Program-made: the position numbers and the translations under genes
The notes under the pieces: model-generated
Told to the model about the DNA's origin: nothing
Seen by the model: the letters and a program-made list of their open reading frames with translations, nothing else
Database searches by the model: none
In this document: positions 10,714 through 42,612 of the stretch, piece by piece
Layout: each line of letters opens with the position of its first letter
Numbering within the stretch: the first letter of the stretch is position 1
Assembly: GCA_903927345.1 (NCBI GenBank)
Contig: CAIYMO010000032.1
Span: 87,758-136,000, forward strand
DNA from: an uncultured Armatimonadota bacterium
Lineage (GTDB): Bacteria; Armatimonadota; Fimbriimonadia; Fimbriimonadales; Fimbriimonadaceae
Length of the DNA: 48,243 nucleotides
Direction of reading: 5' to 3'

Positions 10714-11685
10714 ATGCGTCGCTTCTCCGTTCTGCTCCCCATGCTGCTGATTTGGGGTTGCTCGCCTCAAAAGGAGGACGGAGCATCGAACACAACTGCG
10801 CCGGCAACCGCGGACGCAACTTCCTCACAAGCCGACGCAAACGCACCTACACCTCCAACTCCAGGAAAGACAGAGCCATCGAATACCGATCCAACCGCCA
10901 AGGGTGATCCAAAGTCTGGCGATCCTGTGAAATCCGCCGAGACAGCATCCGCCCCGCTGCCCCCACCAATTCCTGAACCAGGAACCGCAGGATTCCAACC
11001 GACGACGAACAACGCAGTGAAGACCCTCGCCGAAGTGGATTCCCAAATGAAGAAGCTTCGCGACATTGAGATGGTTCAGCTTGTGCAAGCGATCTATCCT
11101 GTCGGGCGCGGCTCGGCAGAGCTGGTGAGTCGAGTCAAAGAGCCAGGCAACCTCTTGCTGCGCTACGCCAATCTCGAGCCAGTAGGCCTCAACTACAACC
11201 TAGTTCAGTACACCGAAGTCAAAAAGGACGGTAAGTCGCAGACCCTCGTCGGGCAGAAATACGAACCAGGGCATCGCGCTCCCTCGGGCAACGTCCTTGA
11301 AACCTGGCCAAAGAATTTCTCACACCATCTGGTCAGCAACTTTGGCACCAACGGCGTGAACTCCCTCTCAGAGCTCGCCCGACTGGCCGCCAAAGCAGGC
11401 TGGAAGACTAGCGTCGAGACCAAGAAGTTTGATAACGGCTCGTTCCAGCGTGTGACGCTCATTTCTAACAGCACTCCGAAGCGAACTTATACGATCCTAG
11501 TCGAGCCGAACAAGAAGTTGCCAATGGAGCTTCAGATGAGCATTGACGACAAGAAGAAAACTCGAGTCATCGTTGCGCTACGCTGGCGCCAGAGTGATAA
11601 GCCGCTTACACAGGAAGACCTAGATCCAAAGATCAAGACGGCACCTCACGTAGATGGCGAAATGGCGAAGAAGCCAGGAATCTAG
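10714..11685 (+). CDS. Lipoprotein of unknown function with a Pro/Thr/Ala-rich linker
   Basis: 323 residues. Signal of 15 residues with a lipobox-like 'LLIWGC' (C16). Residues about 20-110 are a low-complexity Thr/Pro/Ala/Ser linker that would hold the folded part away from the membrane. The folded part (about 115-305) is predicted mixed alpha/beta: 'VKTLAEVDSQMKKLRDIEMV', then strands such as 'TYTILVEPNKKLPMELQMSI'. The charged end 'DLDPKIKTAPHV' faintly resembles lipoprotein-carrier-like folds, but I do not recognise a family. An alternative start is the ATG at 10705. It may be co-transcribed with the GH57 gene. It ends in a four-base CTAG overlap with the convergent gene. Confidence 0.75.
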   Translation: MRRFSVLLPMLLIWGCSPQKEDGASNTTAPATADATSSQADANAPTPPTPGKTEPSNTDPTAKGDPKSGDPVKSAETASAPLPPPIPEPGTAGFQPTTNNAVKTLAEVDSQMKKLRDIEMVQLVQAIYPVGRGSAELVSRVKEPGNLLLRYANLEPVGLNYNLVQYTEVKKDGKSQTLVGQKYEPGHRAPSGNVLETWPKNFSHHLVSNFGTNGVNSLSELARLAAKAGWKTSVETKKFDNGSFQRVTLISNSTPKRTYTILVEPNKKLPMELQMSIDDKKKTRVIVALRWRQSDKPLTQEDLDPKIKTAPHVDGEMAKKPGI

Positions 11686-13634
11686 TTTCCTCGCTTTGTC
11701 GCGAAGACTCTGACTCCTTTCAGCTCGGCAACCTTGTCGCTTGCGTTCAGAATCCGGACGTATCGTCCGCCCATTGGTCGCGGTCGGAACACGGTCACTC
11801 CCGCCTCTGCGTCTGGATAAAAGGCACGACGCGTCTGCATGTCTGCCTCTGCAATCCAAGCCCGAGACTCATCGATCTTCTCTGATGTCCCGTAAACCGA
11901 AACCAGCAAAGCCGAAGGAACATCGCCTCGCAGTTCAAGCTCACCCAAGAATCGGTCTCGACCGAGGTCAATCTCAACCCATTGCTTAGGCTGGAGCGGA
12001 TAAACAGTCAGGTCTTTGTCATCGGTAACCGCCAGGAGTTGAGCAGGGAAGGAGCCCGATGAGTCCCGCACAGGTTTGCCAAGAACAAGGTTTGTGTCTC
12101 GAGAAATCTCCGAGATTGGGAGGTTGAAGGGCAACTCAATCGATGCCGCCTGGGTCATTCCTCGAGCGAAGATATTGCTCAGCTTTGCACTGCTGAAGCT
12201 AAATGAATCACGCACTCCAAACGATTCGGCCGCGACCGAAATCGTGCCGATAAAGCCCTTCGCGGGTGATGCTGGGAACGCGTAACCGTTCTTGTCCGTT
12301 GTCAGCTCGGGCTGATCCGCAAACTTAAGCTTTGTCCCGACCAAGGGAGTTCCGTCGGGCGTAACCGCTCGTAAGATTAAGACGCCGGGGTAGCTTGGTG
12401 CGGGGTTCATCAGGCGGTCAACCTGAAACATCGTCAACGGACCCGTTTCCGGTCTGGCAAGCTGCTTAAACAGTGGCTCGTTCGTTGGGCGAGCAGGCGG
12501 AACCAGTCCGGCCAGCAACGCTACATCGGTCAGATTCTCATCCTCTACATCCTTCGGAATAAGAGTCGAAAGAATCCCCACTGTGTCCTTGTTGCCGTTT
12601 GGGTTCACATGACTCAACGCCCCCAGCGGCGCGAAGCTATAAGTTGAGGCATCAACGCGGTTCAGATTCCACTCTCTTGCCCGGCTTGGAGTTACGTCGA
12701 GCCAAGTTGCTGCAGGGTTAATCAGAATCAGTTTGACTGCTAGGCTGGCATCCTCAAACACGGGAACGACACGCAAGATGCTGTTCCGATTATCCTTCGA
12801 CTTCGGCGCTGAAGGGAGCTTAAGTTCGAGTTGATTGGCTGCACCATTTGCCGAGGTGAGCGAAGCGGCTTGAGTACCCGCAAAGACCCTATATCCGCTC
12901 ATTGGCTGATCGCTGTTCAGGACGACCCTATCGCCGTTCGTCGTCAGCCAGGCGTTGCCAACCTTGGTCGACCCAGGCGCCAACGTGAGCTCGAGGCGGG
13001 GCCGATCCGCAGGCGCCAGCGAACTCCACATCTCGACCTTTCCAGAGCACTCGAGAAGCAGTCCAAAGTTGTCACCCTCGTGAGTTTTGAGATATTGGAA
13101 GGTCTTCCCAAGTCCAGAAATGGTGACTGTGTCGCCGTTAACCTCGATCTTTGCGTTCAGCTTTTCTGAATCCTCATTACCGAGCGCACCAGGGGTCTGC
13201 CAGTTTCCAACATCGCCACCAGCTTTTGACCAAGTGACCCCTGGGGCAAAAGGAATCGGCGCATCCTTAGGGAGCGCCTTGACTCGGCGAGAGAGCGGTT
13301 GAATTCCGGGCCACAGCCAGGGTCGTTTGAGCATCCGAACCCCGGAAACTGCCCCGAATTCTGCGTTGGATAGCTTGATCCTGATCACTGCATCCGCGAT
13401 CTGCTTTTCGTCCCCAACCGCCAAATCTAGCGAGCCAAACCTGAGCAGGATACTGCGCCTTGCGTCGCCTGATAAACCGAATCCGGTTGGGATTGGCAGT
13501 CCAGCCCCTTCCGCATCAATCTGAGCCTCCTGCACATCCCAGTACCGATCCATGATCGATCCCTGGACTCGAGCGCCGCGCTCCAAAATGAGGGTGTCGG
13601 CAGCCAAGTATGTGCACGCAAGCAGTGAAAGCAT
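11682..13634 (-). CDS. Large exported protein with C-terminal discoidin-like domain
   Basis: 650 residues. The ATG at 13634 follows AGAAGG directly and starts a short signal 'MLSLLACTYLAA'; a longer frame upstream lacks coding character. The N-terminal 100 residues ('LILERGARVQGS', 'SILLRFGSLDL', 'ADAVIRIKLSNAEF') look like the DNRLRE-type beta domain found in secreted proteins. The middle has further beta repeats, including an Ig/carboxypeptidase-regulatory-like stretch at about 450-510 ('GTPLVGTKLKFADQPELTTD'). The last 120 residues ('KQWVEIDLGRDRFLGELEL', 'GGRYVRILNASDKVAEL') fit an F5/8 type C (discoidin) fold, usually carbohydrate-binding. I see no catalytic motif. It is probably a surface or extracellular binding protein. 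The domain calls are by motif only. Confidence 0.75.
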   Translation of the reverse strand: MLSLLACTYLAADTLILERGARVQGSIMDRYWDVQEAQIDAEGAGLPIPTGFGLSGDARRSILLRFGSLDLAVGDEKQIADAVIRIKLSNAEFGAVSGVRMLKRPWLWPGIQPLSRRVKALPKDAPIPFAPGVTWSKAGGDVGNWQTPGALGNEDSEKLNAKIEVNGDTVTISGLGKTFQYLKTHEGDNFGLLLECSGKVEMWSSLAPADRPRLELTLAPGSTKVGNAWLTTNGDRVVLNSDQPMSGYRVFAGTQAASLTSANGAANQLELKLPSAPKSKDNRNSILRVVPVFEDASLAVKLILINPAATWLDVTPSRAREWNLNRVDASTYSFAPLGALSHVNPNGNKDTVGILSTLIPKDVEDENLTDVALLAGLVPPARPTNEPLFKQLARPETGPLTMFQVDRLMNPAPSYPGVLILRAVTPDGTPLVGTKLKFADQPELTTDKNGYAFPASPAKGFIGTISVAAESFGVRDSFSFSSAKLSNIFARGMTQAASIELPFNLPISEISRDTNLVLGKPVRDSSGSFPAQLLAVTDDKDLTVYPLQPKQWVEIDLGRDRFLGELELRGDVPSALLVSVYGTSEKIDESRAWIAEADMQTRRAFYPDAEAGVTVFRPRPMGGRYVRILNASDKVAELKGVRVFATKRGN

Positions 13635-13671
13635 CCTTCTAGTTTGACGCCTGCTGGAATTGAATGTGTCG

Positions 13672-13703
13672 CAAAATGAAACGACCCGCTCGTTGGCGGG
13701 TCG
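13672..13703 (-). terminator. Rho-independent terminator of the small basic protein gene
   Basis: CGACCCGC (13682-13689) pairs with GCGGGTCG (13696-13703) around a six-base loop. On the minus strand the stem is followed by TTTCATTTTG. It lies 27 bases past the stop at 13731 and upstream of the next minus-strand gene. Confidence 0.75.
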
Positions 13704-13730
13704 AAACAAATTACGGTCGAATGAAAAGCT

Positions 13731-13904
13731 TTAGGCTTCTGCTTTCTTAGGAGCAGCCTTCTTAGCTGCTGGCTTTGCGGCCTTTGGAGCAGCGGCTTTC
13801 TTTTCTTTCTTGACGCCGCCAGCCATGGCTTCTTTTTTGGCAGTCTTGATGATCTGCTCTTTGCGGTGTCGCTTCACTCGTAGTTCTTTGTTTCGGACTC
13901 TCAT
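13731..13904 (-). CDS. 57-residue Lys/Ala-rich basic protein
   Basis: A short frame starting at ATG 13904 and ending at TAA 13731. Residues 1-26 are strongly basic ('MRVRNKELRVKRHRKEQIIK'), faintly like the RNA-binding N-terminus of ribosomal protein L20. Residues 30-57 are a disordered tail of Lys, Ala and Pro ('KAAKPAAKKAAPKKAEA') of the kind in histone H1-like and some ribosome-associated bacterial proteins. It has a TAAACT element at 13942-13947 and a good terminator at 13682-13703, so it looks like an independent transcription unit, and the codon use is that of a real gene. It probably binds nucleic acid. Whether it is a nucleoid protein, a ribosomal protein extension or something else cannot be said from this sequence. 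Confidence 0.8.
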   Translation of the reverse strand: MRVRNKELRVKRHRKEQIIKTAKKEAMAGGVKKEKKAAAPKAAKPAAKKAAPKKAEA

Positions 13905-13941
13905 CGTTGTTTCAAAATCTCCAGCTTAGTGCTAAAAAGGC

Positions 13942-13947
13942 AGTTTA
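13942..13947 (-). promoter_or_regulatory. Possible -10 element TAAACT for the small basic protein
   Basis: TAAACT lies 37 nt upstream of the ATG at 13904, so the transcript would have a leader of about 30 nt. A GGAG sits 14 nt before the ATG. Weaker than the elements close to start codons elsewhere. Confidence 0.35.
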
Positions 13948-13962
13948 CCCGAGGTTAAAAAA

Positions 13963-14940
13963 TCACCCCAAAATCCGGCCAATCTGTTCTAAATCATCGG
14001 TCGAAGGAACGGCAACTCCAGGCTTCCGAACAACACTTGCTGCCGTATGCGTCGCCAAGTGAAGGCTCGTCTCGGTGAGCGGCCCCAAAGCCGCACAAAG
14101 GGCAAGGGTGGCAATGACCGTGTCACCCGCACCCGCCTCGTCATAAACCTCCACCCGAACCGCAGGAACCTGGGCAACGGAATCCTTTGTCGCTACAACC
14201 ATCCCGCTTCCTCCCAATGTGACGACGAGATTGTCGATGTCGTATTGCTGCCGCAACATCTTTGCCACGGGGCCAGCTTGTTCATCCCCGATTGGCTTTG
14301 CAGACCCGACAGCCGCGCTTGCCTCAAAGCGATTCAGGCTCACCATCGCCGCACCGCTGTAGTAGCTAAGAGTTCCTGGCTTGGCGTTGGCGACGACGGG
14401 AAGACCAAGCCGGCGCCCAAGTGCGATGATCTGCTCAATCACAGTCTGAGGAATCGCGCCTTTCTGATAGTCGCTCAGCAGAATGACTTGCCGCCCTTTG
14501 GAATTCGCTTCGACTTGAGCGATAAGCTGTTCTGCAATCGACTCTGGAATCGGTCGATCGTCTTCGTGGTCAATCCGCAACACCTGATGCGAGTGGTTCG
14601 CAACAACTCGAGTCTTTCGGGTCGTCGGTCGGGTCGAGTCCCGTTGGATCAGAATCGGGTTGATTCCGCTGATCTTAAGGGAGTCTTCAAGATCGTCACC
14701 CGCCTTATCTTGGCCAGCAACGCCAATGATGCCGGTGCTTGCTCCGAGAGCCATGAGGTTCATCGCAACGTTTGCGGCACCGCCCGGAACCGAACTGACT
14801 TTGGACTGCTTAACAACCAAAACCGGAGCCTCTTGGCTCACCCGGGTTGCTTGCCCATAAACGTACTCGTCGAGCATCAAATCTCCCGCGACAAGCACGC
14901 TTAACCCGTGGAACTCTGCCAAGTAGTCTTTTCCGTTCAT
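13963..14940 (-). CDS. rfaE1: D-glycero-beta-D-manno-heptose-7-phosphate kinase-like PfkB sugar kinase
   Basis: 325 residues of the PfkB/ribokinase fold. It follows the heptose kinase domain closely: 'VLVAGDLMLDEYVYG', 'SVPGGAANVAMNL', 'TTRKTRVVANHSHQVLRID', 'VILLSDYQKG', and the ATP/catalytic signature 'DEAGAGDTVIATLA' with base D273. The role would be phosphorylation of heptose 7-phosphate for ADP-heptose synthesis for LPS core. Odd points: the usual 'DPK' after the Rossmann strand is 'NAKPG', and no nucleotidyltransferase half (the C-terminal domain of HldE) is fused or adjacent. Its ATG overlaps the lgt stop as ATGA. The specificity is family inference; another PfkB substrate is possible. 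Confidence 0.78.
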   Translation of the reverse strand: MNGKDYLAEFHGLSVLVAGDLMLDEYVYGQATRVSQEAPVLVVKQSKVSSVPGGAANVAMNLMALGASTGIIGVAGQDKAGDDLEDSLKISGINPILIQRDSTRPTTRKTRVVANHSHQVLRIDHEDDRPIPESIAEQLIAQVEANSKGRQVILLSDYQKGAIPQTVIEQIIALGRRLGLPVVANAKPGTLSYYSGAAMVSLNRFEASAAVGSAKPIGDEQAGPVAKMLRQQYDIDNLVVTLGGSGMVVATKDSVAQVPAVRVEVYDEAGAGDTVIATLALCAALGPLTETSLHLATHTAASVVRKPGVAVPSTDDLEQIGRILG

Positions 14941-41488: not shown

Positions 41489-41525
41489 AACTCTGTCTCT
41501 TTAACATATTCTTAACGCGAATTGG

Positions 41526-41531
41526 TAAACT
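41526..41531 (+). promoter_or_regulatory. -10 element TAAACT for the prepilin gene
   Basis: TAAACT follows a TTAACA (41501-41506) by 19 bases and lies about 91 bases before the ATG at 41623, giving a leader of around 85 nt, much longer than at other genes here. Confidence 0.45.
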
Positions 41532-41563
41532 ATTTGCTTAGAAGGAGTTGTCTAACAGCTCGG

Positions 41564-41622
41564 ATGCGGATGGGAAATGGATTTCTCGGTCTGCGCCGCA
41601 ATTTCCAATTGGAATCATTCAC

Positions 41623-41626
<4 letters not shown>
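41564..41626 (+). CDS. Possible 20-residue upstream ORF overlapping the prepilin start
   Basis: ATG at 41564 opens a 20-codon frame whose TGA (41624-41626) overlaps the prepilin ATG as ATGA. It could couple translation of the leader to the prepilin. No Shine-Dalgarno at the right distance was seen, so it may be chance. Confidence 0.2.
41603..41614. repeat. 12-bp palindrome in the prepilin leader
   Basis: TTCCAATTGGAA is a perfect palindrome ending 8 bases before the prepilin ATG. It could be a binding site or an RNA structure; nothing else links it to a known regulator. Confidence 0.5.

Positions 41627-42612
<986 letters not shown>

Follow-up and report, generated by a model that had tools for sequence, protein, structure and literature searches.

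What is the role of a 57-residue basic protein encoded in the genome of a Fimbriimonadaceae bacterium of the phylum Armatimonadota? Its gene lies in the window, the whole 48,243-nt stretch of DNA analysed here. Sequence comparison gives about an even chance that the product is abundant, binds RNA, and serves the translation machinery, probably in association with the ribosome. This reading is drawn from single copy, conservation, apparent high expression, a shared promoter box, and pairing with an Hfq-related gene.

The gene and its product

The locus contains the following features.

13731–13904, minus strand: coding sequence of the 57-residue basic DUF6800-like protein; stop codon at 13731–13733
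13818–13904, minus strand: conserved core, codons 1–29 (R4, E7, R9, R12, R14, and K20), from column counts in 71 loci
13682–13703, minus strand: intrinsic-terminator-like hairpin 3' of the gene; 8-bp GC-rich stem, then TTTCATTTTG
13942–13949, minus strand: promoter-like box GGTAAACT (own-family consensus GGTATCCT), from comparison with own-family loci
13963–14940, minus strand: PfkB-family kinase (rfaE-like; Pfam PF00294), the upstream neighbour, 58 nt away

The initial annotation placed the open reading frame at exactly these coordinates; the strand, which it left unstated, is minus. The protein sequence is MRVRNKELRVKRHRKEQIIKTAKKEAMAGGVKKEKKAAAPKAAKPAAKKAAPKKAEA. It has 21 lysine and arginine residues versus 5 aspartate and glutamate residues, a net charge of +16, and a computed pI of 11.0, in agreement with the earlier description of a basic protein with an Arg/Lys-rich N-terminus and a disordered tail. 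AlphaFold, run on the single sequence, predicts one N-terminal, Arg-rich helix (residues 3–29). Block pLDDT is 81–95 over residues 1–30, and the disordered tail is predicted with low confidence. The hydrophobic moment of the helix is not above that of shuffles, giving no sign of amphipathicity. In the tail (residues 30–57), lysine, alanine, and proline make up 86% of the residues.

Conservation in Armatimonadota

The sequence is of low complexity and rich in arginine and lysine, and matches of such a kind can be chance. Three results nevertheless make a chance reading frame or a composition artefact extremely improbable. First, substitutions are biased towards synonymous ones. Codons 2–26 show no nonsynonymous difference (~56 sites) from the two nearest congeners, with 6 and 8 synonymous differences (18.6 sites), and codons 27–46 show 1 nonsynonymous and 5 or 8 synonymous differences. 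Second, when scored with a profile of the own-family core, 30 of 35 loci outside the family outscore all 300 composition shuffles of each sequence; for the remaining five, the score is reached by 1 to 6 of 300 shuffles. Third, profile A5 finds a member in 76 of 76 sampled Fimbriimonadaceae genomes, one copy each by table count, a figure biased towards this family because the profile is built from Fimbriimonadaceae-type members. The silent-biased changes in codons 2–26 and the single copy throughout the family indicate, on comparative grounds, that the reading frame is a real gene, of which all close relatives carry one copy.

A search with the single sequence gives matches in 68 of 101 genomes (E up to 0.1). 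Profile A5 matches 178 of 255 Armatimonadota genomes of at least 80% completeness (E up to 0.01); in the subset of best genomes the count is 147 of 194. Conservation of the N-terminus within Armatimonadota, which the initial annotation had proposed to look for, is thus found, both in codons 2–26 and across the phylum. Since 77 of the 255 genomes have no member detectable with profile A5, the protein is not universal in the phylum, a point against a role in the translation machinery. When the non-matching genomes are ordered by kinship to the source, the nearest is an order-level relative. A contig scan for further members finds at least two loci among the matches listed, both in Fimbriimonadaceae.

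Across the 71 loci, conservation begins at the first residues. E7 and R14 are invariant (71 of 71 each), position 4 is arginine in 65 and lysine in 6, and position 12 is arginine in 63 and tryptophan in 8. The N-terminal core follows the pattern M-R-[VI]-R-N-K-E-[LI]-R-x-x-R-H-R-K. Many distant members have just 33–40 residues. Of 33 members sampled outside Fimbriimonadaceae and two near loci, 18 are 45 residues or shorter and lack the Lys/Ala/Pro tail; the tail is therefore an add-on. The initial annotation called it histone-H1-like, and a Lys/Ala/Pro tail is present, but as a variable extension that does not define the family. The last eight residues carry a net charge of 0 or less in 29 of 38 loci, two of the 38 (L073 and L075) belonging to another family. 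We dropped the idea of an acidic tail tip like that of Hfq, as the 57-residue protein has no such tip.

Relation to known protein families

The sole lead in Pfam is DUF6800 (PF20607, function unknown), which aligns with its profile positions 2–38 to residues 4–42, covering the conserved N-terminal core. The score is 16.7 bits (E 0.0083) for the whole protein and 18.5 bits for its core alone, and the curated cut-off is 25 bits. Matches at E up to 0.1 occur in 14 of 42 family rows, and two Armatimonadota members (G121 and G094) pass the cut-off. We label the protein DUF6800-like rather than a DUF6800 member, because its own 16.7 bits fall below 25, yet two members of the phylum exceed it. The Arg-rich N-terminal core is common to both, whereas the Lys/Ala/Pro tail belongs to the 57-residue protein. 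A literature search brought up no paper naming DUF6800, none that joins Armatimonadota with small proteins, and, among the papers listed, nothing about the family of the 57-residue protein.

A faint resemblance of the N-terminus to ribosomal protein L20, suggested in the initial annotation, does not hold up: bL20 was rejected, as no L20 family in Pfam or NCBIfam matches at E up to 10. Identity with bS21, or replacement of it, was rejected as well. PF01165 does not match, and the source genome has a separate bS21, as do 92 of 101 genomes. Among solved structures in the PDB there is no relative, which counts against a ribosomal assignment; the best hit (E 0.39) is an 11-residue stretch of a bS21m, at chance level. 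The protein resembles small ribosomal proteins such as bS21 and bL20 in being very short and Arg/Lys-rich, as bS22 and bTHX also are, and in its box and codon usage. It differs from them in the lack of a sequence match and in the position of its gene, outside the ribosomal operons seen.

The tail and the charge have also been read as signs of a nucleoid-associated or histone-H1-like DNA-binding protein, in which the Lys/Ala/Pro tail would compact DNA. The net charge and the tail composition fit this, as would the ribosomal-protein-like codon usage described below, which suits an abundant nucleoid protein too. The likeness to the histone H1-like proteins Hc1/Hc2 and AlgP lies in a disordered Lys/Ala/Pro-rich tail. 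However, no histone-like family (Hc1, linker histone, or AlgP) matches at E up to 10, and these candidates were rejected. The part conserved in the family is the Arg-rich helix, the tail is variable and often missing, and the genetic links are with Hfq-related and translation genes. We consider such a DNA-binding role quite improbable. Binding of another polyanion is very improbable. A precedent is AlgP of Pseudomonas, proposed as a polyphosphate binder (PMC9239181). Tail composition favours this reading, but neither the gene contexts nor the strong conservation of the core, in which E7 and R14 are invariant, is explained by it.

Transcription signals and expression

The good terminator reported in the initial annotation is borne out by the hairpin listed above; the fold of 13665–13732 has a z-score of −4.7. 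Its promoter-like element is supported in another form than a standard promoter. A sigma-70 scan upstream of the gene finds 0 promoters (0.2 expected), but both of the nearest congeners have conserved the 50 nt that lead up to the start codon. One of the two, G018, likewise has rfaE upstream, and there the rest of the gap between the two genes has diverged. The 20-nt block 13930–13949 has a single exact occurrence in the source genome.

Of 36 own-family loci, 29 have the motif GGTA[TA][CAT][CT]T at 15–90 nt upstream; chance predicts 0.55, and 200 shuffles give at most 3. The motif was picked after viewing 20 upstream regions, a choice for which the shuffles do not correct. It has no recognisable −35 partner. 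The motif is absent upstream in 7 of 36 own-family loci and in 33 of 35 other loci (present in 2 of 35), and the source genome has the variant GGTAAACT in place of the consensus GGTATCCT; both facts weaken the link to translation. With the terminator, the conserved 50 nt, and the box, the gene is likely an independent transcription unit, as first proposed, although only 58 nt separate it from the end of rfaE, which is encoded on the same strand.

Across 34 own-family loci (394 kb), we count 29 copies of the strict form GGTATC[CT]T, of which 23 precede a family member. Of the other six, four stand before a tRNA-Ile gene, uL1, an EF-Tu-domain GTPase (which we take to be TypA/BipA), and a Tyr/Trp-type tRNA synthetase; the fifth precedes a gene for DNA alkylation repair, and the sixth is inside a gene. 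In a complete relative (G037), GGTATCCT occurs 27 times and the reversed control pattern 40 times. One site belongs to the family member. Seven of the other 26 precede bS6, uS14, uL1, uL11, an AspRS-like protein in which Pfam sees the OB anticodon domain alone, tRNA-Pro, and tRNA-Glu, a raw count in one genome rather than an enrichment over the background of translation genes. The sequence also precedes ndk, dxs, a transhydrogenase, a histidine-phosphatase/mutase, and a SurA-like gene, as identified with Pfam. Three further genes are presumably nuoD, accD, and a pyrophosphatase, recognised by eye; Pfam gives no match on the fragments given. The remaining sites are before hypothetical genes or without a clear gene, and one is inside a dnaK-like frame. 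The box resembles a strong promoter element of housekeeping type, and translation genes are frequent among the genes it precedes. Its presence before ndk, dxs, the transhydrogenase, and the mutase tells against a specific tie to translation, as the box may signal strong expression alone.

Codon usage, with 11 ribosomal genes of the source genome as reference, gives the gene an amino-acid-matched z of 3.08, a value that 3 of 216 background fragments attain. This is inside the range of ribosomal gene fragments (−0.40 to 4.36, n = 25). The signal is larger in the tail (z 2.97) than in the core (z 1.40). Judged by its codons, the gene is apparently highly expressed, and it combines this ribosomal-gene-like feature with a box common to bS6, uS14, uL1, and uL11 in G037.

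The window contains GGTAAACT a second time, at 41524–41531 on the plus strand, 24 nt before a plus-strand gene at 41547–42612. That gene has the most ribosomal-like codon usage among 27 long genes of the window, and we take it to be prepilin-like from its N-terminus, recognised by eye.

Neighbouring genes

Beyond the rfaE-like kinase, lgt is also found upstream of the gene by Pfam. Clusters of the lgt type occur in 13 of 71 loci and of the rfaE type in 16 of 71, nearly all in Fimbriimonadaceae; the rfaE-type neighbour is kept in only part of this family. We rejected conserved neighbourhood as a clue to function, as contexts vary outside Fimbriimonadaceae, apart from the pairing with an Hfq-related gene. 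No ribosomal protein operon surrounds a member in the 71 loci examined, a further point against placing the protein on the ribosome. In two distant genomes (L152 and L155), the gene directly before the family member is presumably a GNAT-type acetyltransferase. Downstream, a 675-residue frame (11682–13709, minus strand) draws no Pfam hit at E up to 1e-4. It is listed with a TTG start on the far side of the terminator hairpin, and translation therefore probably begins at a more internal codon.

Pairing with Hfq-related genes

In two other families (f17 and f26), an Hfq-related gene (PF21979; Pfam Hfq_1/Hfq) comes next after the member, in the same orientation. There are 19 such genes, 18 above the cut-off in 17 genomes and one just below it (G191). 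A member lies directly upstream of 14 of the 19 (G100, G126, G137, G146, G168, G174, G196 twice, G201, G209, G113, G214, G223, and G191), with gaps of 3–47 nt in the 11 of 14 pairs measured. The gene before the pair differs between the two families; we take it to be triosephosphate isomerase in f17 and glutaredoxin in f26. The genome G196 has two member copies (L191 and L192), each with its own Hfq-related gene; either a duplication or a mixed assembly may account for this.

These pairs raise the alternative that the protein is an RNA chaperone or a partner of the Hfq family, aiding sRNA/mRNA pairing or modulating Hfq-type rings, in function like FbpA, FbpB, and FbpC of Bacillus subtilis. Pfam holds models of the FbpA/B/C proteins, and besides DUF6800 it gives no match to the 57-residue protein. 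The likeness is in size (29–54 residues for the Fbp proteins) and charge; the difference is that the Fbp proteins are Fur-regulated, whereas this gene has a housekeeping-type box and its product no sequence family match. FbpA/B/C are postulated RNA chaperones that act with the sRNA FsrA, with RNA binding unproven (PMC8464778 and PMC7430163). The recurrence of the pair behind different upstream genes, its twofold presence in G196, and the canonical Hfq of the source genome favour a partnership with Hfq. However, that Hfq lies on another contig, unlinked to the gene. At least seven genomes (G094, G098, G102, G106, G125, G128, and G130, from 20 of the 41 Hfq-less genomes) have a member but no Hfq match. 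In addition, 4 of the 19 Hfq-related genes (G154, G185, and G205, of one genus, and G161) have no adjoining member, and in one more genome (G218) the member and the Hfq-related gene are both at contig ends. We regard a role as RNA chaperone or Hfq-family partner as unlikely.

Discussion

We infer RNA binding, ribosome association, and abundance of the protein. The ribosome-associated role, one of the options of the initial annotation, gains indirect support from conservation, the box, the ribosomal-protein-like codon usage, and the Hfq-linked relatives. As an RNA binder of the translation machinery, it would be a housekeeping, highly expressed small protein of Armatimonadota. Like many small ribosomal proteins, it would use its Arg-rich N-terminal helix to dock on structured RNA, with rRNA as the most probable target, and the Lys/Ala/Pro tail, missing in the short distant members, may add unspecific RNA contacts. 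Pairing with an Hfq-related gene in two families would fit an RNA-handling role.

A bolder version can be put forward only tentatively. The protein may be a new ribosomal or ribosome-associated protein of Armatimonadota within a wider DUF6800 family, starting from an Arg-rich helix protein of 33–40 residues that gained its tail in Fimbriimonadaceae, and the Hfq-related pair in two families may link the ribosome to Hfq-type RNA handling. If it does bind the ribosome, it would add a new lineage-specific component to the ribosome of a phylum that has been little studied, and would offer a first clue to what DUF6800 does. The box is a candidate promoter element for growth genes in Fimbriimonadaceae.
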